A stretch of DNA of 64,000 nucleotides from assembly GCA_017442855.1 (NCBI GenBank), contig JAFSPM010000024.1:1-64000 (forward strand), in the 5' to 3' direction. The notes below the pieces were generated by a model. That model did no database searches and had not been told where the DNA came from. It worked only from the letters and a program-made list of their open reading frames with translations. The position numbers were made by a program, and so were the translations under genes. The stretch's first letter is position 1, and every line of letters begins with the position of its first letter. The DNA is from Bacteroidaceae bacterium. GTDB taxonomy: Bacteria; Bacteroidota; Bacteroidia; Bacteroidales; Bacteroidaceae. Shown here piece after piece: positions 1,976 through 15,388 of the stretch.

Positions 1976-2022
1976 AATTATATTTCAATTATAGATACTA
2001 TCATGCTTTTGGCTTTTCTTTG
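1976..2022 (+). promoter_or_regulatory. Island promoter P1: 11-bp-period direct repeat plus -7 box
   Basis: AATTATA (1976-1982), TTTC, AATTATA (1987-1993) form a perfect direct repeat with 11-bp period. Exactly 21 bases later lies TTTCTTTG (2015-2022), a 7/8 match to the TAnnTTTG -7 box. The repeat is therefore centred near -40, where an OmpR-type activator would sit in place of a -33 element. The start codon of the first peptide follows at 2047. The same arrangement with identical spacing recurs at 6277-6323 and 15319-15365. Confidence 0.8.
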
Positions 2023-2046
2023 TAATCAAAATATTAATATGAATTT

Positions 2047-2187
2047 ATGGATATGGGAAATCGATTTAATGTTTTGACAAAAGACGAACTTGCCAACTTG
2101 AAAGGGGGCCAATGGGTTTGGGATGAAGAGACCCAATCATGGATCTGGGAAGAGGAAATCAACGGTCATGGTGGTGATGATAAATAA
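2047..2187 (+). CDS. Small double-glycine peptide precursor, Trp-rich acidic core
   Basis: A 46-residue peptide, first gene after promoter P1. Residues 1-21 form a leader with the usual hydrophobic/acidic pattern (LTKDELANLKGG), ending in a double glycine with Leu at -4, the recognition pattern of C39 exporter peptidases such as the one at 15389. The predicted 25-residue core begins QWVWDEETQSWIWEEE and contains an internal repeat with 10-residue period, [QS]W[VI]W[DE]EE, so two W-x-W motifs. An alternative start is the second Met (2053). A decayed copy lies at 6344. I do not recognise a named family. Precursor status rests on the leader, size, position and shared promoter. W-x-W is the motif joined by a radical SAM enzyme in darobactin, but cross-linking here is speculation. 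Confidence 0.75.
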   Translation: MDMGNRFNVLTKDELANLKGGQWVWDEETQSWIWEEEINGHGGDDK

Positions 2188-2294
2188 GAGTCTTTTTTTT
2201 GATTATAATTTGTTATTAATAATTCAATAAATGACATCTACTTGATTCCTCCAGAGTCTGGCAATAAATAGCTGTATGATGCTACCTTGAGATT

Positions 2295-2302
2295 TAGTTT
2301 TG
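2295..2302 (+). promoter_or_regulatory. Possible internal -7 box before the Cys4 peptide
   Basis: TAGTTTTG matches TAnnTTTG exactly and lies 45 bases before the ATG at 2347, in the 159-base gap between the two small peptide genes. No clear -33 element is visible, so read-through from P1 may be the main source of transcript. Confidence 0.4.
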
Positions 2303-2346
2303 TATAGACAATCATTATGTTATGTTTAATTTAAAATTTGTATATT

Positions 2347-2517
2347 ATGAAGAAATTTAAAGAAATGTTGAGCTCGACTGATATTCATGTTTTATCAGAA
2401 GAAGAGCAAAAGGTTATTAAAGGTGGTGGCTTTTGGTGTCATTGTGGGGACAGTTATTCCATTTATGTGGATGATATAAGAGACTGTCTAAATGCATGTC
2501 AAGAAGCATTAGATTAA
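2347..2517 (+). CDS. Small double-glycine peptide precursor with four-Cys core
   Basis: A 56-residue peptide. The leader (about 1-27) ends in a double glycine (QKVIKGG, Ile at -4), followed by a core of about 29 residues beginning GFWCHCGDS with cysteines at 31, 33, 47 and 51 (C-x-C and C-x3-C pairs). The leader and position between the Trp-rich peptide and the propeller lipoprotein mark it as an exported peptide precursor. The C-terminal half looks helical and acidic. Two disulfides are plausible and could be made by the VKOR-thioredoxin protein at 4638-6194; that is inference. A perfect 12-bp hairpin follows the stop. No named family is recognised. Confidence 0.75.
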   Translation: MKKFKEMLSSTDIHVLSEEEQKVIKGGGFWCHCGDSYSIYVDDIRDCLNACQEALD

Positions 2518-2527
2518 TGTTTATTAT

Positions 2528-2555
2528 GGATATGTGTCATAAATGACACATATCC
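2528..2555 (+). terminator. Perfect 12-bp hairpin after the Cys4 peptide
   Basis: GGATATGTGTCA, loop TAAA, then its exact complement. It begins 11 bases after the peptide stop and is followed by a weak T-rich stretch (TTGTCTT). It may act as a partial terminator or 3' stabilising hairpin, letting the peptide gene be expressed more strongly than the lipoprotein and SUMF1 genes downstream. Confidence 0.6.
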
Positions 2556-2645
2556 TTGTCTTCCCAAAGGGCAAAGTCTTCTTCCCCATTTTTTTACAAC
2601 TGTTTCCCCAAAGAGACAGTAATGTCTTAGTTAATCTTTTTCTCC

Positions 2646-3746
2646 ATGAAAGGCCTTTTGTGTATTATTATTATGCTTCTCTTTTCTTCATGCTATGAAA
2701 AGAGTGATTATGATATAATAGAAATTAATCCTTTGGAAAATTTAAATAAATCTGAAAATATCAGTATTAAGGAAATCTTAGGTCAGTTAGACTTAGAATA
2801 CACGGTATTGGAAACAGACACCAGCTGTCTGATAGGTCGTAATCCAGAATTCTATGTTACGTCAGATTATATTATTTCTATGGATAAGAATCGTTGTCTG
2901 CTATTCTCACGCAAAAGTGGAAGCATGATTCGCGAGATTCTACATAAAGATCAAGATGATACTGCCTACAGAAACACATTACGTGGAGGAAATGTTGCAT
3001 TAATAGAAGAGACAGAAGATATTTTATTTGAGGGGCTAAAGCCTAATGAACTTTTGATTTACTCCTTAAAGAATGACACAAAACAAACATTACAATTGCA
3101 TGGTCATACTTATACTGTGGCTCCAATAGGACCAATATCTTTTGTAAGTGCAACTCGAAATGTGCTGGGTAATGACTCTCATACTATGTTTCTCTATGAT
3201 AATGAACAGGTTGTTGACTCTATTCCCAATACGCAAATGTTTGATAACTCTGAGAACGCATTAGTTATCTTTAATAACGATGATTATTTTTACAGATACG
3301 GTGGTTTGACCTATTATAAAAATGTAACTAATGACACGATCTTTCAAGTCAACATGCAAGGAAAGCATCCGCATGCAGTTTTTCATACAGAAGGCAAAGG
3401 GGTATCTTTAGACATGAGGAAACATGTTGAATTATTAAGACAGAACGATGAAATCCTACAAATTTATTCGATTGTTGAAAATAAGGATTATATTTTTTAC
3501 CAAATACGTCAAGGGAAACAATTCTATAAATTAATACATAATAAATCTAAACGCACAAGTCACCTTATAGCTGGTACAGGATTAAAAAACGATATTGATG
3601 GAGTCGCTGATTTATGGCCTTATCGCATTACTAAAAATAATGAGTATGTTTTTATTATGGATCCAGCATCTTTGGACGAAAACACATTGTTAAAGTTAGG
3701 TGTTGACTCTGAAAGAAATCCCATTATTGTAATTGGAAAGAAATGA
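2646..3746 (+). CDS. 6-bladed beta-propeller lipoprotein
   Basis: A 366-residue predicted lipoprotein. The signal peptide ends in the lipobox FSSC with Cys16. The rest alternates short strands typical of Bacteroidales 6-bladed beta-propeller (BF3164-like) proteins, including an N-terminal stretch that parallels the two propeller lipoproteins at 6758 and 11012, although sequence similarity is low. Its stop overlaps the ATG of the SUMF1-like gene by 4 bases (ATGA), so the two are translationally coupled. All three propeller lipoproteins of the island sit directly behind peptide precursor genes, which suggests a role in handling or receiving the exported peptide outside the inner membrane. The family is fairly clear; the function is unknown. 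Confidence 0.7.
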   Translation: MKGLLCIIIMLLFSSCYEKSDYDIIEINPLENLNKSENISIKEILGQLDLEYTVLETDTSCLIGRNPEFYVTSDYIISMDKNRCLLFSRKSGSMIREILHKDQDDTAYRNTLRGGNVALIEETEDILFEGLKPNELLIYSLKNDTKQTLQLHGHTYTVAPIGPISFVSATRNVLGNDSHTMFLYDNEQVVDSIPNTQMFDNSENALVIFNNDDYFYRYGGLTYYKNVTNDTIFQVNMQGKHPHAVFHTEGKGVSLDMRKHVELLRQNDEILQIYSIVENKDYIFYQIRQGKQFYKLIHNKSKRTSHLIAGTGLKNDIDGVADLWPYRITKNNEYVFIMDPASLDENTLLKLGVDSERNPIIVIGKK

Positions 3747-4501
3747 AGTTATTGTATACAACTCTTGTTTTATCGTCTCTACCTTCTTTATTGTTGGCTC
3801 AAAAGGATGTGACCATCCCTCCAGTCATTCAACAATTATTAGACAACATGGTACTTGTTGAAGGTGGCACATTCATGATGGGAGGCACAGCTGAGCAAGG
3901 TGCCGAGGCATCAGAATATGAATTTCCCATTCATGAAGTGACTGTCTCATCTTTCTATATAGGAAAATATGAGGTGACACAAGAGGAATGGGAAGCTGTG
4001 ATGGGCGAAAACCCATCACGTTTTCCTAACCCAAAACACCCAGTTGAGCAGGTAAGCTATCGTGACTGCCAAAAGTTCATTCGGAAGTTGAGTAGATTAG
4101 TTAAAAAGAGATTCCGTATGCCGACAGAAGCCGAATGGGAGTTTGCGGCAAGAGGAGGGAAGCAGAGCAAAGGCTATAAGTATGCTGGCAGCAACGACAT
4201 CAAGGAGGTGGCATGGCTATTTGAAAACAGCAGCAATGGCACACAGGAGGTAGGGTTGAAAAAGCCGAATGAGTTAGGACTATATGACATGAGTGGCAAT
4301 GTATGGGAGTGGTGTAATGACCTATTGGGTAATTACAGCTATGCCCAGCAGAAGAACCCCGTAGGTGCTTACAGTGGCACTTTCTATGTGTTTCGTGGAG
4401 GCAGTTGGGTCAATGAACCTTGGTACGCTCGTGTCTCTATGCGTAACGGCAATCAGCCCCGTGTGCGCAGTGTAAATTTGGGATTGAGACTTGCACTCTA
4501 A
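3743..4501 (+). CDS. SUMF1/FGE-fold secreted protein
   Basis: A 252-residue protein with an N-terminal signal peptide (about 1-19, ending LLLAQ) and a formylglycine-generating-enzyme-like domain over most of the remainder. Family hallmarks: VEGGTFMMGG, YIGKYEVTQEEWEAVMG, FRMPTEAEWEFAARGG, GLYDMSGNVWEWCND, FRGGSW and the end NLGLRLAL. In true sulfatase-modifying enzymes the copper-binding Cys lies in a CRxxxR-like motif near the end; here the corresponding stretch reads ARVSMRN, so the catalytic Cys is absent. It is therefore probably not a sulfatase activator but one of the many SUMF1-fold proteins of Bacteroidales. Being secreted and coupled to the propeller lipoprotein, it could bind or modify the exported peptide; this is inference. 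Confidence 0.85.
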   Translation: MKLLYTTLVLSSLPSLLLAQKDVTIPPVIQQLLDNMVLVEGGTFMMGGTAEQGAEASEYEFPIHEVTVSSFYIGKYEVTQEEWEAVMGENPSRFPNPKHPVEQVSYRDCQKFIRKLSRLVKKRFRMPTEAEWEFAARGGKQSKGYKYAGSNDIKEVAWLFENSSNGTQEVGLKKPNELGLYDMSGNVWEWCNDLLGNYSYAQQKNPVGAYSGTFYVFRGGSWVNEPWYARVSMRNGNQPRVRSVNLGLRLAL

Positions 4502-4637
4502 GTTTAATAACATGCAACCATTTAAGCAAGTGAAATGAAAAATGATTAAGATGTTCCAATCATAAGAACTTAATTCTTTATCTCATGTCCCCCAAAAAGG
4601 TAATGGATACTAATTCGTTTACTACCTTTCCCTCCAA

Positions 4638-6194
4638 TTAGACTATCGTATGAATAAAATGAGCCAAATCTTCCAATTCATATTGTTCCGGGATTAACCA
4701 TCCGTTAAACAATATAGTAGGAGTGGTTGTAATTCCAGTATCACGCATCCATTGTTTCTGTCTTTCCAACGACTGAAGCATAGTTTCATCCTGCGTATAC
4801 AAGGCATATTTCTGATAAAAAGATTCTTTATTTTTTCCCCCATGCTTATACCATTCGGTAAGGAAAGTCAGATAATCATTATCATTCTTCAGACGCTGGT
4901 ATTGCTGGATAAGTATCATAGAACTTGGCACCAAATCCTTGTTGAAAGAAGTGAGTATAAACTGAATACACATATCATTATGTACGGCTTTATATAAAGA
5001 CTCTATATGAGGATGCAACTTTGCACATGGGTTGCAATGTGGATTAGTAACTATCGTTAGACAATTCTGTGCTTCTATGTTACCAATCGTTAAACCTACA
5101 TTGCGGTCATCTAGGAAAGATTTCTGCTGGTGAAGCAATAGACAAAACACTTCTTCATTTGCCTTTATTCGTTTGTAACCATAGATTAACTGCGCCTGCT
5201 CTTTGGCTTTAACTCTGTTATTAACAAAAAAATGTACAGTCAGCATTGATACAATATATAGACAGCCAACACCAGCAAGCCGAATGATATTAAAAGAACC
5301 TGGATCGAATCTATGGTTTAAACATAAAGAGATAAACGTTGCCCAAAGACAAGCCAACACCAGTAAGCATAGTGCACACCATTGTTTAAGACTGTATTTT
5401 TGCGCCCAGATACTCCACGGAGTAAATGGAAGAGCAAGAATATTGATGATTAGCATACAATCAAGATTTTTCTGATCAAGCAGTAGTAACATGCTGCATA
5501 TGAAATACCCCAAACCAATACTGCTCAAACTGATGCCAAAGAATTTGGATATGTACGTTTCCAATACGCTATTGCAATTGTTGGAATGCAGTAACAATGA
5601 ACATATTTTATCACCATATCTACTTTCACCAGTCATTTGCTTCTGTACCAACAACCAGCAGATGGTTACACCTGTTAAACAGAATAAAGCAGGTGTTCTT
5701 ATGGAAGTCCACAGGCTTATGTTTATAACAGATAGGCAAATCCATGAACATACAGCCATCAGTATCAAAATGTTTCTTGTCAATAAATTGATTATTTTCT
5801 GTTTCTTCTTAGTATAATAGTTGGGCTCTATTGATTGATCGTTGGCTTCAAAACCTAAAACAGCTCCAGACCATTGTTTCACGAAGTCTGAACTTGATAA
5901 TGAGATTTCGTTCCCATTCCAAATATAAGTAACACTTGCAGATGACAATTCTTTAACCATAACCAACTCATGGTCAACATAAGCTACAAATGGGGCTTCA
6001 AGTTTTTGTAGCGAGACTTCCGTTTTTTCAAATTGTAAGCCCAATGTCTCAATGCCATACGCCCTAAGCATCATGCTAAGACCATACATATTGTCCTTGT
6101 CTGGATGCTGCACAAAATAATGTAAAGACGTCTCTTTAATATGCTTTACATGCAGTGTTTGAAGAATATCAATAAACAGGTTATACTTTTTCAT
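4638..6194 (-). CDS. VKOR-thioredoxin disulfide oxidase with degenerate C39-like N-domain
   Basis: An inner-membrane protein of 518 residues. Residues 1-115 resemble a C39 peptidase fold (YGLSMMLRAYGIE, then PFVAYVDHELVMV) but lack the DCG catalytic Cys. A vitamin K epoxide reductase-like helical bundle follows, with loop cysteines at about 198 and 207 and the redox pair WCALC (273/276). The C-terminal domain is thioredoxin-like with CNPC (387/390) and a cis-Pro region TTPTILFNG. VKOR-thioredoxin fusions oxidise periplasmic thiols. In this island the likely substrates are the Cys-containing peptides. The ATG at 6194 is preferred over one at 6215 because the latter lies inside the -7 box (6213-6220). 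Confidence 0.85.
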   Translation of the reverse strand: MKKYNLFIDILQTLHVKHIKETSLHYFVQHPDKDNMYGLSMMLRAYGIETLGLQFEKTEVSLQKLEAPFVAYVDHELVMVKELSSASVTYIWNGNEISLSSSDFVKQWSGAVLGFEANDQSIEPNYYTKKKQKIINLLTRNILILMAVCSWICLSVINISLWTSIRTPALFCLTGVTICWLLVQKQMTGESRYGDKICSLLLHSNNCNSVLETYISKFFGISLSSIGLGYFICSMLLLLDQKNLDCMLIINILALPFTPWSIWAQKYSLKQWCALCLLVLACLWATFISLCLNHRFDPGSFNIIRLAGVGCLYIVSMLTVHFFVNNRVKAKEQAQLIYGYKRIKANEEVFCLLLHQQKSFLDDRNVGLTIGNIEAQNCLTIVTNPHCNPCAKLHPHIESLYKAVHNDMCIQFILTSFNKDLVPSSMILIQQYQRLKNDNDYLTFLTEWYKHGGKNKESFYQKYALYTQDETMLQSLERQKQWMRDTGITTTPTILFNGWLIPEQYELEDLAHFIHTIV

Positions 6195-6212
6195 GTTTAA
6201 TAATCTTTTGTT

Positions 6213-6220
6213 CAAAAGTA
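6213..6220 (-). promoter_or_regulatory. -7 box for the VKOR-thioredoxin gene
   Basis: Minus-strand TACTTTTG matches TAnnTTTG. It lies 19 bases before the ATG at 6194 and excludes the upstream ATG at 6215 as the start. The gene is transcribed away from promoter P2. Confidence 0.55.
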
Positions 6221-6276
6221 TCTAATAATCACATATCACCCAAACTGTTAAAACAAAATTATCTAGTCAAAGAAAC

Positions 6277-6323
6277 AATTATATTTCAATTATAAATACT
6301 ATCATAATTTTGGCTTTTCTTTG
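6277..6323 (+). promoter_or_regulatory. Island promoter P2: 11-bp-period direct repeat plus -7 box
   Basis: AATTATA (6277-6283), TTTC, AATTATA (6288-6294), then exactly 21 bases to TTTCTTTG (6316-6323). The block from the repeat to the start codon of the decayed peptide is a near-copy of P1, so promoter and peptide gene were duplicated together. P2 probably drives the long unit from 6515 to about 14020. Confidence 0.8.
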
Positions 6324-6343
6324 TAATCATTAATATTTTAGGT

Positions 6344-6478
6344 ATGGGAAATCGATTAAATGTTTTGACAAAAGACGAACTTGTCAACTTGAAAGTAGGC
6401 CAATGGGTTTGGGATGAAGAAACCCAATCATAGATTTAGAAAGAGGAAATCAATGGACATGATGGTGAAAACTTGTAG
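6344..6478 (+). pseudogene. Decayed copy of the Trp-rich peptide gene
   Basis: The frame begins MGNRLNVLTKDELVNLK like the peptide at 2047 but stops after 29 codons. The two Trp codons of the second W-x-W motif (TGG ATC TGG at 2047) are both TAG here (TAG ATT TAG at 6431-6439). The double glycine has become Val-Gly (KVG). Beyond the stops the homologous frame continues to 6478. The first W-x-W (QWVWDEE) is intact. With cleavage motif and second repeat lost it is most likely a pseudogene, acting now as the 5' leader of unit B. A short 29-residue product cannot be excluded. Confidence 0.8.
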
Positions 6479-6514
6479 TAACAGATTGTTTTATTAATTT
6501 ATAAATTTGATATT

Positions 6515-6724
6515 ATGAAAAAGTTAAGCAGCATTAAGTTAGCTCAGTTGAATGAGCAGGAATTGAGCAAAAGAGAAATGAACCGGCTTGTGGGTGCTGA
6601 ATCAGATTTATGTTGTATATGTAGTTGTTTCGGTAATTTGGCAACGATGATGGAACTTGATTATAACTCATTTTTTAGACTTTCTTCGCCCTTACCAGGT
6701 TTTCTATATGGTGATAAATCCTGA
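6515..6724 (+). CDS. GG-Bacteroidales radical-SAM peptide precursor 1
   Basis: A 69-residue precursor. The leader (1-28) is KLSSIKLAQLNEQELSKRE followed by MNRLVGA, closely matching the TIGR04149-type leader of GG-Bacteroidales peptides. The cleavage site is Gly-Ala rather than Gly-Gly, still acceptable to C39 peptidases. The core starts ESDLCCICSCFG and ends LSSPLPGFLYGDKS. A paralogue at 10743 shares the leader, the CCICxC cluster and the C-terminal motif. It is followed by a propeller lipoprotein and then the radical SAM and pseudo-radical-SAM genes that define this system. The precursor role is well supported by family resemblance; the final modification is unknown. Confidence 0.9.
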   Translation: MKKLSSIKLAQLNEQELSKREMNRLVGAESDLCCICSCFGNLATMMELDYNSFFRLSSPLPGFLYGDKS

Positions 6725-6757
6725 TTTCTGTGTTTTCTTTCAAAGAATTGCATAATT

Positions 6758-7999
6758 ATGGTAAGGTGTCTTTTACTATTCATAGTTTTCTATTTGATGG
6801 GAACTCTAACATCATGTCAAATGAAGGAAAATGATTTAAACACTCCCTTAAATGGATGTCCAGTAGTTGCACAACGAGTAATTACAAATAGTGGAGATTC
6901 CTTAATTGTATGCAATATTAAATTGCTGACAGACACTATCGATTTCCCATTGAGTCATCTACTCTCTTATTTAGAAATAGTCAAGCTCGATGACAGAGAA
7001 GATGCGACCATCGACAATGTCTCTTTGCAAGCTGTAAGCCCCAATCACATAGGTTTATACAGTTTTTATGGTGGCATTAAGCTGTTTGACAGGAGCGGTA
7101 ATTACATTTCTGATATATCAAAGAAGGGACAAGGTCCCGATGAATACACCCTGAGCCCATCTGACATGCTGATTGATGAAGCTAAGAATCGTTTTTACTT
7201 TACGGGACCAGGCATGGAGAAACTGATGACTTTTGACTTATACGGTAATCCTGTAAAGCATATCCCATTGTCAAGGTTTAAAAACTTGCCAGACCGATAT
7301 AATAACCAAATAGGATTCAGGTTTGATAGTGAGCATGAAAGAATCAAGATCGCCCATGTCCCTTTCTCTGAAGAAGAACCCGCATTATGGATACAGGATT
7401 TGGAGGGCAATCTTATTCAATGGACTCCAGGGAAACATCTGGCATCTCGCAGAGATTTCTCAAACACGTTAGGTAATGCTCAAAACACTGCTGCCAATGA
7501 TTATTGCATTGGGTATTGGTATGATGAACGGGTGGACTCACTTTATCACTATGATGAAATGGAGAACAGAATGAGACCTGTGTTCACTGCCAATCTGGAT
7601 TGTATAAGCAAATTTCATAAGTATATAGAGTTACCGGGATATTACTATATCTATATGGGTGATTATGGAGGTGTGGTCTATAATAATGTATATGTGTTGA
7701 TAGATAAGCAGACCCTTAGGGGCAGTTATGTTCGTTTCAAGCTTGATATGTTGGGCAATATCGGAACTGGCCAATGGCTCGACTTTACCAGAGGTTATTA
7801 TGTTAGATGCACGCATCCAGCTATTCTGCAAGAACAATGGCAAGGTAGCGATGACTTCTCTGAGCTCCCGCCTAATATGGCAAAGTTCATGAGATATTTA
7901 CAGACCCACGATGTGGAAGATATGAATAATGTAGTACTGATAGGCAAGCTTAAACAAAAGCAAGACGAAAAGTTTATTTTAAAAGATATGAACTGGTAA
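6758..7999 (+). CDS. 6-bladed beta-propeller lipoprotein (paired with precursor 1)
   Basis: A 413-residue lipoprotein with lipobox LTSC (Cys20). It has the BF3164/TolB-like propeller signature of Bacteroidales, with GIKLFDRSGNYISDISKKG then QGPDEY, and FDLYGNPVKHI. It is closely related along its length to the protein at 11012, including the C-terminal VEDMNNVVLIGKLKQ. It lies between precursor 1 and the maturase gene and ends 3 bases before the radical SAM start, so it is part of the same operon. Pairing of each precursor with its own propeller copy suggests a dedicated surface or periplasmic partner. The biochemical role is not known. Confidence 0.8.
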   Translation: MVRCLLLFIVFYLMGTLTSCQMKENDLNTPLNGCPVVAQRVITNSGDSLIVCNIKLLTDTIDFPLSHLLSYLEIVKLDDREDATIDNVSLQAVSPNHIGLYSFYGGIKLFDRSGNYISDISKKGQGPDEYTLSPSDMLIDEAKNRFYFTGPGMEKLMTFDLYGNPVKHIPLSRFKNLPDRYNNQIGFRFDSEHERIKIAHVPFSEEEPALWIQDLEGNLIQWTPGKHLASRRDFSNTLGNAQNTAANDYCIGYWYDERVDSLYHYDEMENRMRPVFTANLDCISKFHKYIELPGYYYIYMGDYGGVVYNNVYVLIDKQTLRGSYVRFKLDMLGNIGTGQWLDFTRGYYVRCTHPAILQEQWQGSDDFSELPPNMAKFMRYLQTHDVEDMNNVVLIGKLKQKQDEKFILKDMNW

Positions 8000-8002
8000 T
8001 AA

Positions 8003-9487
8003 ATGGTGATTACCCTAAAAGTGTTGAATATTTTTAATAAAATGGATATGGAGGATTATCTAATAACGACAGCCAAGTCTGGTAATAAATATTTGTACGC
8101 TGATGCTGCAAAATACAATAGTTATATACCTAATGCTTTTTATGAAACTTTCGGGAAAGAAGACAGCAATGATAAATCGTATTATCAACAGAAACTTTGT
8201 TTCTTCAAGAATCATGGTTTATTAGAAAAAGAGAATATTAGGCTTACTTCTAAATTTACTGGTGAACAAGTTCGAAAGAACTTAGCTAACCTCCGCCAAT
8301 TATTGATAGAGGTAACAGATGGTTGTAATTTGAAGTGTAAGTATTGTGGCTATGGCGAGTTCTACAGCAATCATGATGAAAGGAGAGGAGTTAATCAAAC
8401 ATTTGAGAATGTTAAAGTCATTATTGATTATCTTTATGATCTTTGGAAATCGGAGTACAATATAACTTCAAATAATGTTTTTACTATCGGGTTTTATGGT
8501 GGTGAGCCATTATTAAACATGAGGTTAATTAAAGAGGTCATTCTTTACGTAGAAGGTTTAGATACTAATGGTATCGAGTTTGTTTATTATATGACAACCA
8601 ATGGCATGTTACTTGATAGATATGCCGATTTCATCGTACAAAAGCAATTCCAATTATTAATTAGTTTGGATGGCGATGAATATGGTGATAGTTATCGTGT
8701 GGATCATCACGGTAACGAGTCTTTTTCTAAGGTATTAGCTAATATTAAGAAGTTAAAATATGAATATCCTGATTATTATGACAAACATGTCTCTTTTAAT
8801 GCAGTTTTGCATGACAGGAATTCTGTAGCAAGAACAGTGAAGTTTGTACATGATACTTTGGATAAGCCTATACGTTTATCAGAGTTAAATCCTTTAGGTA
8901 TTGCGAAAGAGAAATTAGAAGAGTTCCATAAAATGTTCAAGTTGCGTAGAGAAAGTTATCAAGTAGCTTGTGAAGACGAAGAAATTAAGAAAATTATCGG
9001 TGACGAAGACGATGAGACTGCCGCTTTCCGTAGTATGTTATTACAATATTCTGGAAATCACTTTATGAATTATTCAAATCTTTTTGATTATTCAATTGAG
9101 AATGAGTATCATCCCACTTCAACATGCAGACCATTTGAACGAAAGATTTTCTTAACAGTGAATGGGAAAATATTCCCTTGTGAGAAAATTGGAGAGGATT
9201 ATCCTTTAGGCAAACTTGAAAATGGTATCATCCATTTGGATTGTGATAAAGTTGCTGAATTATATTCGCGAAAGTATGAAGAAGCTATGGTTAGTTGCAA
9301 AAATTGCTATTCTAAAAGAACATGTGGACAATGCATGTATTTTATGCCCACGAATAATGGTCATTTGTATTGTCAAAACATAATGGACTTGAAATATAGG
9401 CAAGGCCTGTTATCTTCCTGTTACTCTTTTGCGGAAACGAATCCTCAACAATATGATGTGCTTTTATCAACCATAAAACTAAGTTAA
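8003..9487 (+). CDS. Radical SAM/SPASM peptide maturase, GG-Bacteroidales type
   Basis: A 494-residue radical SAM enzyme that would modify the Cys-rich precursors in the cytoplasm. The [4Fe-4S]/SAM motif is CNLKCKYC (Cys108, 112, 115), preceded by LLIEVTDG. YGGEPLLN is the typical SAM-binding GGEP-like motif. The C-terminal SPASM region has many cysteines (CRPFERKIFLTVNGKIFPC, then CKNC, TCGQC) for auxiliary clusters. This architecture next to a pseudo-radical-SAM partner and leader-matching precursors fits the TIGR04148 family. The start at 8003 is 3 bases after the previous stop; Met14 (8042) is an alternative. The exact reaction (thioether, C-C or C-O bond) cannot be read from sequence. 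Confidence 0.92.
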   Translation: MVITLKVLNIFNKMDMEDYLITTAKSGNKYLYADAAKYNSYIPNAFYETFGKEDSNDKSYYQQKLCFFKNHGLLEKENIRLTSKFTGEQVRKNLANLRQLLIEVTDGCNLKCKYCGYGEFYSNHDERRGVNQTFENVKVIIDYLYDLWKSEYNITSNNVFTIGFYGGEPLLNMRLIKEVILYVEGLDTNGIEFVYYMTTNGMLLDRYADFIVQKQFQLLISLDGDEYGDSYRVDHHGNESFSKVLANIKKLKYEYPDYYDKHVSFNAVLHDRNSVARTVKFVHDTLDKPIRLSELNPLGIAKEKLEEFHKMFKLRRESYQVACEDEEIKKIIGDEDDETAAFRSMLLQYSGNHFMNYSNLFDYSIENEYHPTSTCRPFERKIFLTVNGKIFPCEKIGEDYPLGKLENGIIHLDCDKVAELYSRKYEEAMVSCKNCYSKRTCGQCMYFMPTNNGHLYCQNIMDLKYRQGLLSSCYSFAETNPQQYDVLLSTIKLS

Positions 9488-9490
9488 TAC

Positions 9491-10693
9491 ATGAAACGAT
9501 TGCTTTATTTGGAACCATATACATTCGCTTTTATTGGCGAAAAGGAAGCTGTAATTTATAACACCTTGAATTCTGCCTATATTCATGCAAATCTAAATCA
9601 TCCTGTTGTAAGGAATATTATAGATACCTTGAACAACCCTGATAATGGCTATGGGATTATCCTGGATGATAAAGAGTTGGAAGATCCGGAGGTAAAGAGC
9701 TTCATTTATGCTGTACGAGAATCTTTTTCGGGTGATCTTGTACCATTTAAAGAAGGGAGCACAAAACCTTTTATCTTCAAACCTGCACCTTATATGAACA
9801 ATTTGGTTGAAGATGAAGATGATCCTGATAATAGTAAAACCGCCGGTGAGCTTGCTTTGCAGAATCTTTGCGAAGTAACTTTATTCTTGCCTGTCAATAA
9901 TGTACAATCCGATGACTCTTTCTATCATCTACAGATGAATCATCCATATAATTGCCATAACGAGAATCAATTGCAAATAGAAGATTATGCAACAGTTCTG
10001 CATCAATTGTTTATTGCTGGTGTCAATAGAGTTAATGTTGTAGGAACAGACCAACTGCTGGCATTTAATCACTTGTTTGGCAACAGTGATACGAAGCTAT
10101 ATTACTATACGTCATTAAGCAGTAGTATCCCCGAACAGTTTCAGATAGATAAGCCATTGGAAATCTTCATCCATCCAGAAGAAATAACTGTAGAGACGGC
10201 AGAAAATATAAAGATTCATCATAGAGATGGCATAGTGTGGAATTTCATATTAACCTCTATCACCGATGTTGAAAGGGTTGATAAACTAAATCTGCCTGAA
10301 CATATCGATTATAAATACACCCCATATTACGATGGTAGTAACATGCCATTCTTTGAACAGCATGTCTTTAATGGTTTGGATGACATCATTGCAAAACCTG
10401 TCTCACGGAAGGCCATCTTTAGAAGACAACTGTTGAATGAGAATTTCTTCGGGAAGCATTGGATAGACGCTGCTGGTCACGTTTATGGGAACATGAACTG
10501 TGCACCTGTGGGGAACATTCGCAATGGTAGTCTGAAGGATATGGCGACTAAACTGTTAGTAGAGAAACAATTTCCCTGGCTGTTGACAAGAGAAATTGAG
10601 CCTTGTAAGCATTGTGTCAATCGCTATCTTTGTCCATCTGTTTCTAATTATGAATTAGTCATGAATAGATATAATCTGTGTCATGTTAAGTGA
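9491..10693 (+). CDS. Pseudo-radical-SAM partner protein, GG-Bacteroidales system
   Basis: A 400-residue protein resembling a radical SAM peptide maturase but lacking any CxxxCxxC in the expected place. It has a C-terminal SPASM-like cysteine set, CAPVGNIRNGSL then CKHCVNRYLC and a final Cys near the end. It starts 3 bases after the maturase stop. TIGR04150 pseudo-rSAM proteins occur together with TIGR04148 enzymes and TIGR04149 precursors, and this triplet is complete here. The N-terminal part (about 1-90) may form a leader-binding module. It likely presents the precursor to the active enzyme or binds a cluster through the SPASM part; neither is demonstrated. Confidence 0.88.
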   Translation: MKRLLYLEPYTFAFIGEKEAVIYNTLNSAYIHANLNHPVVRNIIDTLNNPDNGYGIILDDKELEDPEVKSFIYAVRESFSGDLVPFKEGSTKPFIFKPAPYMNNLVEDEDDPDNSKTAGELALQNLCEVTLFLPVNNVQSDDSFYHLQMNHPYNCHNENQLQIEDYATVLHQLFIAGVNRVNVVGTDQLLAFNHLFGNSDTKLYYYTSLSSSIPEQFQIDKPLEIFIHPEEITVETAENIKIHHRDGIVWNFILTSITDVERVDKLNLPEHIDYKYTPYYDGSNMPFFEQHVFNGLDDIIAKPVSRKAIFRRQLLNENFFGKHWIDAAGHVYGNMNCAPVGNIRNGSLKDMATKLLVEKQFPWLLTREIEPCKHCVNRYLCPSVSNYELVMNRYNLCHVK

Positions 10694-10742
10694 TGCAGGT
10701 TTGTTATAATTAACTTTTTATTAATCTTTAAAATTAATGCCT

Positions 10743-10952
10743 ATGAAGAAATTAAACAGTATTAAGTTGTCTCAACTTAACGAGCAGGAGTTGAGCAAAA
10801 GGGAAATGAACCGCCTTATTGGTGGTGCTGAATTGTGTTGCATCTGCGGTTGTAGTGGTCAGAACTTTATAACCATGTATGAATTGAATTTCAACACTTC
10901 TTTTAATTTATCATCACCGACACCTGGTTTCTTGTATGGTGATAAATCATAG
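10743..10952 (+). CDS. GG-Bacteroidales radical-SAM peptide precursor 2
   Basis: A 69-residue precursor, paralogue of the one at 6515. Leader KLNSIKLSQLNEQELSKRE then MNRLIGG with a canonical double glycine; core AELCCICGCSGQNF with C-terminal LSSPTPGFLYGDKS. The start at 10743 (MKKLN) matches precursor 1 and is preferred to the ATG at 10737. Between the two paralogues the leader, CCICxC and the last dozen residues are nearly invariant, while the middle varies. A perfect hairpin follows 8 bases after the stop. Confidence 0.9.
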   Translation: MKKLNSIKLSQLNEQELSKREMNRLIGGAELCCICGCSGQNFITMYELNFNTSFNLSSPTPGFLYGDKS

Positions 10953-10960
10953 TCTTTAAT

Positions 10961-10990
10961 GAGTTAGGCTCAAAAACTTGAGCCTAACTC
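10961..10990 (+). terminator. Perfect 13-bp hairpin after precursor 2
   Basis: GAGTTAGGCTCAA, loop AAAC, then the exact complement to 10990. There is no T-run behind it, so it is more likely a partial terminator or transcript-stabilising hairpin between the precursor and its propeller gene than a full stop. The Cys4 peptide at 2347 has a similar perfect hairpin. Confidence 0.6.
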
Positions 10991-11011
10991 AAATTGTAAA
11001 ACCTTGCTGCC

Positions 11012-12241
11012 ATGTTTAAATCAATTGCAACTGTTGCATTCATCGCTTTTGTGCTTGCTTTAACTTCTTGTCATAACAAGAAAAACTTATTATTAAATCC
11101 AATTGACTCCTCTCCAATAGTAGCATATAAAACCTTATCAGAAAAAGGTGATACTTTGGTAGTAGCCAATTTTGACTTAATGACGGATACCGTAGATTTC
11201 CCAATGAGCCTGCTATTTTCAGACTTTGAGTTGGTAAAGTTAGAAGACAAGGAGGACGCTTTGATAGGGAATGAAACATTAACTTTCGTAAGTCCTTCAT
11301 ACATTGGAGTATATTCTTTTTTTACTGGTTATAAGCTGTTTAACAGGCAAGGAGAATACCTTACGAACATCTCAAATAAAGGGAACGGACCAGATGAATA
11401 TCCCACAGGAGTAGGTGAGAGTTTTATAGATGAAGACAGTAATTGTGTTTACTTAACGTACCCTGCGGCAACCAAAATCTTGGCTTTTGATTTTCATGGG
11501 AATCCTGCAAATCATATACAATTAGCTTATGGAAACATCAAAAAAACAACCACCTTTTTTGATGAAGATCGGCAGCATTTATACGTTTTGAATTTAGCAT
11601 TCAATGAGGATGAACCCATTGTTTGGAAGCAGGATTTGCAAGGAAATGTTCTGAAACAATTGCCAGCGAAACATTTGGCTGCAATCCCCAATTTCTCCAA
11701 TTCGTTAGACGCCTATTTGAATACTACAGCTATAGATTTTTCTATAGGCTATTATTATACTGATAGGCTGGACACTCTCTATCATTATGATGAGAATTCC
11801 AATAATCTGGCACCTGTTTTCACTACTAATTTGGATTGTTTGTCCAATTTCCATCAATATATTGAACTTCCTGACTTTTATTGCATATTTGTGAATGCCT
11901 ACTTAGGAAGTGACGGTTGGCGAGGGTACGCCTTGATTGACAAGCACACATTGAAGGGCAGCTATGTAAGGTTCAAGCTTGACATGCTGGGAGATATTGA
12001 CATTCCCCGTAGCAACATGATTGATCATGGCTACTACAAAACCTGTATCCATCCGTATGTGCTTCAAGAACAATGGATTAAGAAAGGGGAAATCAAAGGA
12101 TTGCCAGATGGTCTTTCCCGTTTCGTTAAATATCTTCAGACTCACGATGTGGAAGAAATGAATAATGTGGTGCTGATAGGCAAACTCAAACAAAGCAAAG
12201 ACGAAGAGTTTGTTTTACATGATATGAATTTCAACGATTAG
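11012..12241 (+). CDS. 6-bladed beta-propeller lipoprotein (paired with precursor 2)
   Basis: A 409-residue lipoprotein with lipobox LTSC (Cys20), paralogous to the protein at 6758. Shared features include the N-terminal SPIVAYKTLSEKGDTLVVA region, a GYKLFNRQGEYLTNISNKG then NGPDEYP motif, FDFHGNPANHIQL, the KGSYVRFKLDMLG stretch and the C-terminal VEEMNNVVLIGKLKQ. The precursor-propeller pair therefore appears twice, on either side of the maturase genes. Probable anchoring in the outer or inner membrane facing the periplasm or surface; function unknown. Confidence 0.8.
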   Translation: MFKSIATVAFIAFVLALTSCHNKKNLLLNPIDSSPIVAYKTLSEKGDTLVVANFDLMTDTVDFPMSLLFSDFELVKLEDKEDALIGNETLTFVSPSYIGVYSFFTGYKLFNRQGEYLTNISNKGNGPDEYPTGVGESFIDEDSNCVYLTYPAATKILAFDFHGNPANHIQLAYGNIKKTTTFFDEDRQHLYVLNLAFNEDEPIVWKQDLQGNVLKQLPAKHLAAIPNFSNSLDAYLNTTAIDFSIGYYYTDRLDTLYHYDENSNNLAPVFTTNLDCLSNFHQYIELPDFYCIFVNAYLGSDGWRGYALIDKHTLKGSYVRFKLDMLGDIDIPRSNMIDHGYYKTCIHPYVLQEQWIKKGEIKGLPDGLSRFVKYLQTHDVEEMNNVVLIGKLKQSKDEEFVLHDMNFND

Positions 12242-12249
12242 TCTCTAAG

Positions 12250-12861
12250 GTGAAGAATAATATTGAGGATATAGCTAAGCGTTGTCTGATAGAATCAGGT
12301 GATAACACAGATATAGGTCTGATAAAAGGGAAAACCGGCCTTTGTCTGTTCTACTTCCTGTATAGTAAATATAGCAATAATGCTGTGCTTGAAGATTTAG
12401 CGGAGGAATTGCTGTATGAGGTAACAGAAGGAATCTCTAATGAAACTCCTATATGGTTTGGCGATGGACTGGCTGGCATTGGATGGGCAGTGATTTTTCT
12501 CTATCAACATCGTTATATTGATGGTGATGTGAATATCATTCTGAACTGCTGTGACAGATTGATTACTCAAAGGGATGTCAGGCGGATCGGCAACACATCC
12601 TTAGAGAAAGGACTGCGTGGCATCGCAGCTTATGTGGCTGCAAGGTTTGAGTTGGGTTTGGAACACCCAATGCTTGATGAACAATATGCCAATGAACTGT
12701 TTGCGAGATGTAAGGAAGCGGGTGTCAATAACTATGATTTATCCATGGAAGCATTGTGTAAATACATGAACCAGGTGGAATGTGCTGCTTTCTGGAAAGC
12801 AGGCATTTGTCCTATGATTGAGAAGCAACATGAAGAGAAGTCATTTGTATCTGATAGATGA
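12250..12861 (+). CDS. Half-size LanC-like protein
   Basis: A 203-residue protein resembling the N-terminal half of lanthionine synthetase C-like proteins: IKGKTGLCLFYFLYSKY, WFGDGLAGIGWAV and GNTSLEKGLRGIAAYVA are alpha-toroid repeat motifs. LanC cyclases have about 400 residues and bind zinc through Cys, Cys-His in the second half; that half and those ligands are missing here. The likely start is GTG at 12250, 8 bases after the preceding stop, since no ATG is available. The 3' end overlaps the glycosyltransferase gene. A related protein lies at 14744. It is probably a non-catalytic substrate-binding or scaffold protein for peptide modification, by inference. Confidence 0.7.
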   Translation: MKNNIEDIAKRCLIESGDNTDIGLIKGKTGLCLFYFLYSKYSNNAVLEDLAEELLYEVTEGISNETPIWFGDGLAGIGWAVIFLYQHRYIDGDVNIILNCCDRLITQRDVRRIGNTSLEKGLRGIAAYVAARFELGLEHPMLDEQYANELFARCKEAGVNNYDLSMEALCKYMNQVECAAFWKAGICPMIEKQHEEKSFVSDR

Positions 12862-14020
12862 GGTCTGCAAAGGGTCAAAATATGGGGTAAACTCCTATAT
12901 GGCACTTCTGCAAGGATGTACAACATGCTTTGACAAGGTGACTGCTGTTGTATTAAGTGCGGAAAAGAAGGACTTGGTTGTAACTGAGGAGGCTGGTATT
13001 CAATATATCTATATCCCGCATCTGTCCCAAGATAAGGAATCATATTACAGACGGTGCTTTTATGTCCTTTCTTTTTATGTCAATCAAGAGGAGGTGAATG
13101 TTGCTCAGTTTAACTACCTGAACTCACAAGAGCTATCTACGGCCTTGAAGGAAAAGCTGGGTTTTAAGATTGTGCTCACTTGGCACTACAACTATTGGAA
13201 GGACTGGATAGAGACGGCTAACTTGCTACATCTGTTGCGAATGTCAGAATCGGAGCTTGCAGTGCAACCAGAGGTTGAAAAGATAAAAAGGAAACGCGTA
13301 GAAGAAAGTGGCAGGATGCTCAAAGATTATGACAAGATAATAACTGTTTGCCAAGAATCTTACGATGAATTGCAGCAAGTCTATGGTTTGTCTGCTACTC
13401 AGTTAGCCCTGATTCATAATCCAGTGAAACCTCTCAAAGGCAGGAATGATTATGTGGCTCCTGATAAAAAGAACATCATCTGTGTTGGCAGGATTGACCA
13501 TAACAAGAATGTGGAACTGTTGGTGGAAGCTTTTATAGAACTGCGCAAGAAAAGGGATGACATCAGATTACTTATCGTTGGAGGTGGGGTGTATGACAAT
13601 GCCATCTCTCGCATTGGACTGAATTATCAAGATATCTGCTTCACTGGGATGCTAAATAAAGAGCAATTGGAGGAGGTTTATCAGAACGCCCATGTGGGAG
13701 TAACCTTGTCATGGCATGAGGAAGGCCCCTTGGTGGCATTGGAGATGATGCAGCATGGCATACCTGTGATAGGGAGCAGGACAGGCATCTTGCCTGAGCT
13801 TATAGAAGATGGCAGGAACGGCTATTTAGTGGATTTGGTATGGAGGCAAAACGACTTCAATATACAGCCTGTGGTGGAGAGACTAGAGGCTGTATTGTCT
13901 GCACCCGACTATATGCAGATGCGTCAATATGCCATAGATAGTGTTGATGAACGGTTCAGTTATGAATTGTTCAAGGAAAAGATGACAAGGCTGTACGAGG
14001 AATTACTAAACAGGGATTAG
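12830..14020 (+). CDS. GT4 glycosyltransferase of the peptide island
   Basis: A 396-residue GT-B fold glycosyltransferase, family GT4. The C-terminal nucleotide-sugar domain has VGRIDHNKNVELLVEAF, LLIVGGG, and the EGPLVALEMM segment holding the E-x7-E pair, then GIPVIGSRTGILPELI. The N-terminus (HLYLIDEVCKGSKYGVNSYM) resembles glycosyltransferases reported with GG-Bacteroidales peptide systems (TIGR04157), but that specific assignment is from memory. The gene overlaps the LanC-like gene by 32 bases; a start at 12818 would add four residues. A glycosyltransferase coupled to the modification genes suggests that the peptide is glycosylated, but an envelope acceptor is equally possible. Confidence 0.8.
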   Translation: MKRSHLYLIDEVCKGSKYGVNSYMALLQGCTTCFDKVTAVVLSAEKKDLVVTEEAGIQYIYIPHLSQDKESYYRRCFYVLSFYVNQEEVNVAQFNYLNSQELSTALKEKLGFKIVLTWHYNYWKDWIETANLLHLLRMSESELAVQPEVEKIKRKRVEESGRMLKDYDKIITVCQESYDELQQVYGLSATQLALIHNPVKPLKGRNDYVAPDKKNIICVGRIDHNKNVELLVEAFIELRKKRDDIRLLIVGGGVYDNAISRIGLNYQDICFTGMLNKEQLEEVYQNAHVGVTLSWHEEGPLVALEMMQHGIPVIGSRTGILPELIEDGRNGYLVDLVWRQNDFNIQPVVERLEAVLSAPDYMQMRQYAIDSVDERFSYELFKEKMTRLYEELLNRD

Positions 14021-14045
14021 ATTGTTCCCATGTTAGCCTGCTTCT

Positions 14046-14747
14046 TCAATAGATAGCCAACTGCTTATCCCATGTGCCAAGGAAGTAGTGGATGCAGTAG
14101 GCATCGCCTATCCTGGAACGGAAAAGCTGCGTGTCGCACTGATAGACATAACGGTACATGTCCATCTTTCTGACAGGTGACACCAATTCGTATGGCAAGG
14201 CATGAGCACCCAGTGGAAGCAAGTGCTGAAACATCCGAGTCAGCATGTGCACCCCCGTGACATTGAATACCACACGGCCCTCTGTATATTCCTTGGACGC
14301 ACGCTCTATCTCTTGCAGTATCAAAGGCCATCCAGCCCAGCCTGGCACGGATGCCATGAATCCATTGCCCGTGACATTACGAAGCCAGGGATATGGACTT
14401 GGGGTGGAGGGCTCCTCGCCAATATACATTTGATAGCCATCAGTGAACAAACCATCCAAAGGCTTCAGGCATTCTATGTCAAGGTCTGCATACAAACCAC
14501 CATAGTGATGCAAAATCATGTAGCGGATAGAGTCCCATCGCAGGATGTTTTCTTTGAACCCGTTGTAGGTTGGCAAGAAATCAGGGTAGGACTCTTCTAC
14601 TAATCGCTGCATTTCTTCACGACCCCATAGGCGATACTCCCAAGAGGGATTAAGGCGTTTGAAGGTCTCTGCCAAAATCTGGAAACGTATAGGTACAGGT
14701 TTCCCCTCAGGGCTATCCCATAGCTGATGTATTATTTTGGGTATCAT
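14046..14747 (-). CDS. GT32-like glycosyltransferase
   Basis: A 233-residue glycosyltransferase with the GT32/OCH1-type layout: IPKIIHQLWDS at the N-terminus, then RWDSIRYMILHHYGGLYADLD with the DxD motif that binds the metal-nucleotide sugar, and a C-terminal His-containing stretch (YCIHYFLGTWD). The start at 14747 is chosen because its ATGA overlaps the TGA of the LanC-like gene upstream, a classic coupling; an upstream ATG at 14795 is less likely. The gene converges with the GT4 gene, 25 bases apart. It likely adds a hexose to the peptide or a surface glycan; the acceptor is unknown. Confidence 0.85.
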   Translation of the reverse strand: MIPKIIHQLWDSPEGKPVPIRFQILAETFKRLNPSWEYRLWGREEMQRLVEESYPDFLPTYNGFKENILRWDSIRYMILHHYGGLYADLDIECLKPLDGLFTDGYQMYIGEEPSTPSPYPWLRNVTGNGFMASVPGWAGWPLILQEIERASKEYTEGRVVFNVTGVHMLTRMFQHLLPLGAHALPYELVSPVRKMDMYRYVYQCDTQLFRSRIGDAYCIHYFLGTWDKQLAIY

Positions 14748-15232
14748 AAGGCGGTGAGTGTTTGATGGTTCACAATTCCTGTCCAGTTGTTCCATAGACG
14801 ATGCAGGACATAGGTCTCCAAGCCAGTGTTACCTGTTTGCCTATAATGATGATAGTTGCTGATGTCTTGACTTTCTTGTTGAGTTAGGTCTTCGTATGTC
14901 TCAATCTGTGCATCAATGGCATGTAATATTTCATCTAAATCACCTTCCACAAAACGATGGTGCAGCAGATAGGTAAACCCCAATCCAATACCACAGAGAC
15001 CTTCCAAACCTACAGGCATGTCTTTAGGCACTGTAAGCGCAATCTCTATCTGCTCATCCGCTAATTGTTCAAACAAAGGGTCGTTTGTATATCGGCTATA
15101 TTCATAAAAGATAATGGCAACCCCCAGTTGCCCCTTAAAGAGAGTAACGTCACTCAGGGATTTAGACCGGAATAGCAGGAAACGGATGGTCTCCCATGTC
15201 AATGCCTGGTTTTGTGCAAATAGCTTGTGCAT
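14744..15232 (-). CDS. Second half-size LanC-like protein
   Basis: A 162-residue protein related to the one at 12250: FKGQLGVAIIFYEYSRYTND, GLEGLCGIGLGFTYLLHHRF and TGNTGLETYVLHRL align with its repeats. As there, only the N-terminal half of a LanC-like toroid is present and no zinc ligands are visible. It is the first gene of a leftward pair with the GT32-like gene (ATGA overlap). It may be a pared-down accessory protein, or the remnant of a longer gene; keeping an exact stop-start coupling argues that it is maintained. Confidence 0.65.
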   Translation of the reverse strand: MHKLFAQNQALTWETIRFLLFRSKSLSDVTLFKGQLGVAIIFYEYSRYTNDPLFEQLADEQIEIALTVPKDMPVGLEGLCGIGLGFTYLLHHRFVEGDLDEILHAIDAQIETYEDLTQQESQDISNYHHYRQTGNTGLETYVLHRLWNNWTGIVNHQTLTAL

Positions 15233-15254
15233 GATGGGTTATTTTTTTAATTTT

Positions 15255-15262
15255 CAAAGATA
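15255..15262 (-). promoter_or_regulatory. -7 box for the LanC-like/GT32 pair
   Basis: Minus-strand TATCTTTG, a perfect TAnnTTTG, 23 bases before the ATG at 15232. The direct repeat of promoter P3 lies 57 bases further upstream, so the regulator site is shared in the divergent gap but not at the geometry used by P1-P3. Confidence 0.6.
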
Positions 15263-15318
15263 ATGAACATTCAGTAACCAACATAATAAATGAAAAGAAA
15301 TAATGCTTATGATGTAAC

Positions 15319-15365
15319 AATGATATTTCAATTATATCTGTATTGAATGAGATGTCGTAACTTTG
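15319..15365 (+). promoter_or_regulatory. Island promoter P3: 11-bp-period direct repeat plus -7 box
   Basis: AATGATA (15319-15325), TTTC, AATTATA (15330-15336), exactly 21 bases, then TAACTTTG (15358-15365), a perfect -7 box. Only one base of the left half-site differs from P1 and P2, although the rest of the region is unrelated to them, so the repeat and spacing are conserved for function rather than by duplication. It drives the exporter operon. Confidence 0.85.
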
Positions 15366-15388
15366 TCAGTTTAGAAAAGAAAGTAAGC

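Follow-up and report, generated by a model that had tools for sequence, protein, structure and literature searches.

We analysed positions 1 to 64,000 of the forward strand of contig JAFSPM010000024.1 (assembly GCA_017442855.1, a Bacteroidaceae bacterium), and by the window we mean this whole stretch of 64,000 nucleotides. An island of peptide, peptide-maturation and exporter genes within it carries an 18-bp box, made of two 7-bp half-sites with an 11-bp period, at three forward-strand promoters named P1, P2 and P3. The P1 box (AATTATATTTCAATTATA) was located at 1976-1993 with its -7 box (TTTCTTTG) at 2015-2022, the P2 box, identical to that of P1 over 18 bp (AATTATATTTCAATTATA), at 6277-6294 with its -7 box (TTTCTTTG) at 6316-6323, and the P3 box (AATGATATTTCAATTATA) at 15319-15336 with its -7 box (TAACTTTG) at 15358-15365. 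Each repeat ended exactly 21 bp before its -7 box, so the coordinates and the gap claimed by an earlier sequence-only reading were borne out. The same reading had given the repeat as AATTATA-N4-AATTATA at all three promoters, which was true of P1 and P2; the first half-site of P3 is AATGATA, one base off. When the window was searched with AATNATATTTCAATTATA at up to 3 mismatches, 3 matches were obtained, all at 0 mismatches, compared to 0.40 expected, and 1 of 100 shuffles reached 3. The three-box observation is real and not a product of chance.

Repeats, promoters and genes of the island

P1 and P2 had been regarded as a duplication and P3 as otherwise unrelated, and both views were confirmed. 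The spacers of P1 and P2 were identical at 18 of 21 positions and the upstream 60 bp at only 13 of 60, placing the start of the duplication at the box. The duplication takes in the peptide gene, whose P2 copy has decayed. P3 and P1 had 17 of 18 bases in common in the box and 6 of 21 in the spacer. In the congeneric genome G112 (L086 around 8757), the 56 bp around P3 (15316-15371) recurred unchanged between dissimilar flanks, which could be a recent transfer.

On the reverse strand, ahead of P1, lie a sensor histidine kinase (HK) gene (1-1152), cut off by the contig start, and the gene of an OmpR/PhoB-type response regulator (RR; 1169-1834, receiver 3-112, Trans_reg_C 144-217), the candidate binder of the box. 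Read by eye, the kinase had a hydrophobic N-terminal segment, a periplasm-sized region, a second hydrophobic segment and a kinase core; a homologue, L086:2397-3770, was scored. On the forward strand, the first gene after P1 (2047-2187) encodes a 46-residue double-glycine (GG) peptide with an aromatic core, a pheromone candidate that belonged to no NCBIfam family. It is followed by a 56-residue GG peptide (2347-2517) with a weak TIGR04149 match (19.6 bits, cut-off 25) and by a terminator-like hairpin of 12 pairs (2528-2555), which may end the P1 transcript after the two small peptides.

Downstream of P2, the decayed copy of the P1 peptide (6344-6433, forward) has VG in place of GG and a premature stop. 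The P2 box is intact although its peptide gene has decayed, and P2 now precedes genes for a ribosomally synthesized and post-translationally modified peptide (RiPP). These forward-strand genes encode a TIGR04149 radical SAM (rSAM)-modified RiPP precursor (6515-6724; 42.2 bits, cut-off 25), a 6-bladed beta-propeller protein (DUF5128; 6758-7999), a TIGR04148 radical SAM peptide maturase (8003-9487; 493.8 bits), a TIGR04150 pseudo-rSAM protein (9491-10693; 304.3 bits) and a second TIGR04149 precursor (10737-10952; 54.2 bits, cut-off 25). With TIGR04148, TIGR04150 and both TIGR04149 precursors over their cut-offs, the island belongs to the GG-Bacteroidales RiPP clusters. After P3, also on the forward strand, come a C39-peptidase ABC exporter (15347-17593) and an HlyD-type adaptor (17603-18565), the latter below the curated cut-offs. 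The listed start of the exporter overlaps the -7 box, and the ATG at 15389 is the likelier start.

The proposal that one code governs the whole island was too strong, given the hairpin at 2528-2555 and the genes at 4638-6215, 14046-14795 and 14744-15232, which are on the opposite strand. The first of these, divergent from P2, encodes a single protein that combines a C39-like domain with VKOR and thioredoxin domains.

Sites in the source genome and in congeners

The source genome (G000; 2.76 Mb, 80% complete) was scanned with the pattern AATNANATTTYRATTATA-N21-TWNNTTTG, with the reversed pattern serving as the control. Six matches were found at 0 mismatches, a figure that is partly by construction as the degenerate letters of AATNANATTTYRATTATA were picked after seeing these six sites; none were found at 1-2 mismatches and two at 3, and the reversed pattern gave 0. 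Because the pattern was fitted to the six sites, the independent test lies in the lack of matches at 1-2 mismatches, in the reversed control and in the scan of the genus. Allowing up to 1 mismatch, we identified 19 sites among 158 congeneric genomes, in five of them (6 in G000, 6 in G006, 2 in G013, 4 in G112 and 1 in G135), and the reversed pattern had 0 matches in all 158. Without the spacer and -7 box, the 18-mer was unspecific in the source genome when up to 3 mismatches were allowed, and since it gave 38 matches versus 23 for the reversed pattern, most 3-mismatch 18-mers were rejected as sites. C15:97153, a 3-mismatch match with a poor box, was rejected, as was C28:45808, which is inside an open frame and lacks a -7 box at 21 bp.

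Three of the six strong sites in the source genome were on other contigs, before peptide and exporter genes, and a purely local regulon, as proposed earlier, was rejected on this basis. The site at C15:178249 precedes genes for a DUF1573 protein, an NVEALA peptide, a propeller protein and a signal peptidase. The site at C15:181323 precedes the start of a membrane fusion protein (MFP) gene at the contig end; the gene sequence reappears at the end of C2, accompanied by the remainder of an MFP-RND (resistance-nodulation-division)-TolC set, and C22:69383 is likewise followed by MFP-RND-TolC. The motif was not common at unrelated genes, and the extra strong sites were at functionally related ones: the genes behind the off-island sites differ from those of the island but have a related theme, peptides and export. 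Two weaker sites in the source genome, with a 20-bp spacer, precede proteins like the N-terminal part of SusC, and another weaker site, C22:82240, precedes a gene run described below. Proteins of about 238 residues (L089:10808-11524, L093:10306-11019, L099:9914-10627 and others) were seen beside HK-RR pairs and behind such sites; the one scanned resembled the N-terminal part of SusC alone (TIGR04056, 53 bits, cut-off 368).

Homologues of the exporters were found widely in the genus, MFP in 86 and the ABC exporter in 72 of the 158 genomes. Of 30 MFP loci examined, a site was present in 5/5 from site genomes and 0/25 from others. At a score of 20, the 30 ABC exporter loci examined had a site in 1/1 from a site genome and 0/29 from others, two of which scored 12.8; the ABC genes of G112 and G006 fell outside these 30 loci, and each has a P3-like site upstream, in G112 with other genes in between. 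Since exporter loci of non-site congeners had no site, homologous exporters are not under this code by default.

Among the six sites of the source genome, 15-18 of 18 box bases agreed. The spacers of site pairs without a duplication link agreed at only 4-8 of 21 positions, and those of the C15 and C22 sites among themselves at 9-14 of 21 and look related. A matrix trained on 17 sites was applied to 26 stretches, admitting any spacer of 19-23 bp, and 39 rows scored at least 20, leaving 35 distinct sites after a contig fetched twice (L031 = L086, 4 rows) was dropped. Twenty-six had a 21-bp spacer and nine a 20-bp spacer, 35/35 at one of these two lengths; 17 of the 35 were training sites, and two of the other 18 were copies of trained ones. 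The single row with a 19-bp spacer scored 16.2, and three shuffled copies gave 2 matches at a lower threshold of 14. Over 23 distinct 21-bp sites, a shift of 11 brought 6.04 of 7 half-site positions into agreement, versus at most 3.8 for shifts of 5-10, and the information content was 28.7 bits for the box and 11.9 bits for the -7 box.

The possibility that AT-rich sequence produced the boxes by coincidence, or that a promoter block without function was duplicated, draws on the duplication of P1 and P2 and on the 56-bp P3 block shared with G112 between dissimilar flanks. Set against the absence of any reversed match in 158 genomes, the occurrence of sites with unrelated spacers, and the linkage of a site to an RR in a second genus (below), we consider it highly improbable.

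The 7-4-7 arrangement bore out the view that an 11-bp-period direct repeat is an OmpR/PhoB-type layout: according to a review passage, the original PHO box spans 18 nt and consists of two direct repeats of 7 nt with four nucleotides between them (PMC4415409). For the sigma-ABfr promoter, the passage of PMC7366714 on its consensus gives TAnnTTTG at -7 and TTTG near -33. P3, alone within the window trio, and three C15/C22 sites matched the -7 element fully, and P1 and P2 deviated at position 2, with T in place of A. TTTG near -33 was absent in P1-P3, in the 20 bases around the expected position, and the second half-site sits there. A scan for sigma-70-type promoters was uninformative (65 found vs 66.2 in shuffles). 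The missing -33 element and the fixed spacing to the -7 box would also suit a promoter read by an alternative, extracytoplasmic function (ECF)-type sigma factor, with the box as one of its elements instead of an activator site. That explanation is unlikely in our judgement, in that the -7 box is the primary-sigma TAnnTTTG of the PMC7366714 consensus passage, a box of 18 bp and 28.7 bits that repeats internally at 11 bp was judged long for a sigma element, and the box is linked to an OmpR-type RR family.

Response regulators linked to the sites

The sequence-only reading named the RR at 1169-1834 as the only such regulator in view, which holds within the window; the source genome has six Trans_reg_C domains. 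RprY of Bacteroides (NCBIfam NF051850) was the best-scoring named family for the window RR, yet the score of 115.8 bits was far below the cut-off of 370, and identification as RprY was rejected. The true RprY of the source genome is on C47 (441 bits) and lacks a site within 1.5 kb. The window RR family was found in 10 of 158 congeners at E 1e-35. An order-wide search found it in 1 of 393 genomes, the source genome itself, a weak negative as at most 7 first-look candidates were scored among the genomes listed.

Of the 14 intact RRs of this family, 10 had a site within 1.5 kb (9 of 13 loci, and L098), and eight of these ten sites had not been used in matrix training. In contrast, 0 of 21 other OmpR-type Trans_reg_C genes sampled (3 from the source genome, 17 from seven congeners and 1 from G072) had one (Fisher 5.5e-6, a value that, like the co-occurrence values of 7.8e-9 and 4.1e-5, ignores relatedness). 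For the family RRs at L100 and L101 the site is just past the kinase. A second family RR of the source genome (L099:9089-9754; G000:C12 near 164 kb) contains an in-frame TAA, possibly an assembly error; the frame of its kinase is uninterrupted, and the RR-kinase pair lies between two sites with 20-bp spacers.

The linkage extended to a second genus in a held-out case. An RR of Phocaeicola massiliensis, 37.7% identical and the best relative in a plasmid collection, was found by protein alone, with 4 of the 8 listed records examined. Its 15.4-kb neighbourhood held one match, with a 21-bp spacer, between the HK-RR pair and a divergent GG-peptide/C39 operon, and three control RR loci had no match at a score of at least 11.

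A second kind of candidate regulator also emerged. The gene at C22:79124-79558 (L110:2121-2558, reverse) encodes a 145-residue receiver-truncated RR (mini-RR), in which Pfam detected Trans_reg_C only. The receiver is kept up to the phospho-acceptor position and is then followed by the DNA-binding domain; the residue at that position is N in this copy and D in the other eight. Nine mini-RRs were found in 6 of 158 genomes, including 5/5 strong-site genomes, a co-occurrence whose force is limited by shared ancestry and by the incompleteness of the five assemblies. The sixth genome, G113 (59% complete), lacked strong sites. Viral contigs contained no mini-RR relative, and phages one partial match with 52% coverage. 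Mini-RRs sit in propeller or NVEALA/signal-peptidase gene runs, and the gene run behind C22:82240 is TPR-propeller-mini-RR-SUMF. Proteins of about 530 residues directly before mini-RRs, such as L221:6567-8159, carried a 6-bladed propeller and a TonB C-terminal domain (one scanned). The SUMF-like protein beside the mini-RR (L110:1321-2097) is 80% identical to one encoded in the island (3743-4501).

In a tree of C-terminal domains, the 14 intact RRs and the nine mini-RRs fell into one 23-row group (87/89, at an open fork); long-branch warnings touched L200 and the L085/L098 pair, and the placement of L200 is unsure. By eye, the recognition helix had N at one position (NN or YN) in 23/23 group rows and not in the 19 other rows.

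The homologues of the window RR mostly carry an adjacent site, in keeping with the earlier proposal that it is the regulator. The distribution of mini-RRs nevertheless fits the strong sites better, as the intact family at E 1e-35 covers 4/5 of the strong-site genomes versus 5/5. The mini-RR could then be the main reader, at least at the NVEALA/RND sites, with the window RR one of several paralogues that have slightly different sites. Besides the co-occurrence, an 80-81%-identical MFP subgroup was restricted to the five site genomes, and G013 and G135 had strong MFP-promoter sites and a mini-RR together with only a divergent RR (46-47%). G027 and G100, the nearest to G000 (98/96; one-gene tree, eight genomes), had a divergent RR without a mini-RR and without a strong site. 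The DNA-binding domains of the mini-RRs and the window RR grouped together, weakly (91/62). Against these stand the position of sites, within 1.5 kb of 0/9 mini-RR genes versus 10/14 intact RRs, and P1, which is divergent from the window RR gene itself; the co-occurrence may also reflect common descent of one package. We regard the mini-RR as main reader as a tentative alternative, less likely than not. Co-occurrence across genomes thus speaks for the mini-RR, and physical proximity of sites for the intact RR; we expect both to read the code.

Several points weigh against an operator read by these regulators, in addition to the fitted pattern, the share of trained sites in the matrix result and the disregard of relatedness given above. 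No strong site was found among the 93 congeners at least 90% complete in the 158-genome scan, and the same 93 had no mini-RR; all five strong-site genomes are incomplete (78-89%), and complete genomes were reached only by weaker variant sites (G091 and G177). The family RRs L082 (G072) and L200 (G006) had no site in the stretches read, which for L200 span 1.5 kb each way. G006 has six strong sites, no family RR at E 1e-35, and two diverged members (L098 and L200) besides a mini-RR. The mini-RR genes, with no site within 1.5 kb, had a weak upstream site in only 2/9 operons in the stretches fetched. The absence of strong sites from the more complete congeners left our confidence unchanged, because the linkage of sites to RRs is independent of it.

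Proposed operator code and its relation to known systems

Taken together, we think it probable that the box is a PHO-box-like operator, bound by OmpR/PhoB-type regulators that activate these promoters. From sequence we infer the binding, the activation, the kinase control with its signal, and the assignment of regulators to sites, as follows. The half-sites, arranged head to tail and with the second ending 21 bp upstream of the -7 box, would take the place of the -33 element. A kinase-controlled RR with an NN (or YN) recognition helix would bind the repeat as a tandem head-to-tail dimer and, once bound, recruit RNA polymerase to a promoter with the -7 box alone, replacing the -33 contact. In the assignment we prefer, the window RR and its kinase would drive the island sites, and the mini-RR would read the same code and tie the NVEALA/RND clusters to it.

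Among the loci examined, the P1-type aromatic GG peptide was found solely right after such sites, at P1, twice in G112, and in G177 and G091; a match in L139 was of low complexity and was set aside. The peptide was beside an HK-RR pair at P1, in one of the two G112 copies, and in G177 and G091. In G112:C56, a site with this peptide occurs twice (L086:4560 and 10259), one adjoining the HK-RR pair and the other about 6 kb off. The G006 copy is out of frame, and no close RR was found in G006. This placement would fit an autoinducing peptide, and an autoinducing loop is possible. In a more speculative extension, the P1 peptide would be exported by the P3 C39 transporter, sensed by the adjacent kinase, and would switch on one operator code, with a second, phosphorylation-independent arm of mini-RRs wiring the NVEALA/RND export clusters to the same code. 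We consider this full circuit rather doubtful.

The arrangement resembles the PhoB regulon in its 7-4-7, 18-nt repeat upstream of the core promoter, as outlined in the PHO-box passage of PMC4415409, and in a regulator that belongs to the same family by sequence. It differs in box sequence, in its peptide-secretion genes and in its Bacteroidota -7 box, and the window RR scored 93 bits versus a PhoB cut-off of 296. We rate the code as a new variant of the PhoB-type regulon. In the ComCDE and Blp systems of streptococci, a double-glycine peptide is encoded next to an HK-RR pair, the C39 exporter is in the regulon, the operators are direct repeats and the RRs are of the LytTR type. A GG peptide beside an HK-RR pair, a C39 exporter among the predicted targets and direct-repeat operators are found here too; the window RR, however, is of the Trans_reg_C and not the LytTR type, and peptide sensing is only a possibility.

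Like the island, the published GG-Bacteroidales RiPP clusters BGC3-5 comprise rSAM, pseudo-rSAM and LanC-like proteins and GG precursors, BGC5 with an HK and RR, and the part of that paper describing them presents the clusters without a promoter code or regulon (PMC10352776). Among the matches listed for open-licence PMC articles, no paper dealt with this operator, with Bacteroidota OmpR regulators that have a truncated receiver, or with what switches on GG-Bacteroidales RiPP clusters. Now that the operator can be read and candidate regulators and target promoters can be named, the control of such clusters becomes directly testable. The results suggest that peptide-export clusters on separate contigs answer to one code, and they draw attention to unusual regulators in which only part of the receiver domain is left.

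Two further features of the window were recorded. Its G+C content was 0.33-0.45 in the first 20 kb versus 0.45-0.54 in the next 20 kb, and its single tRNA is at 61960.

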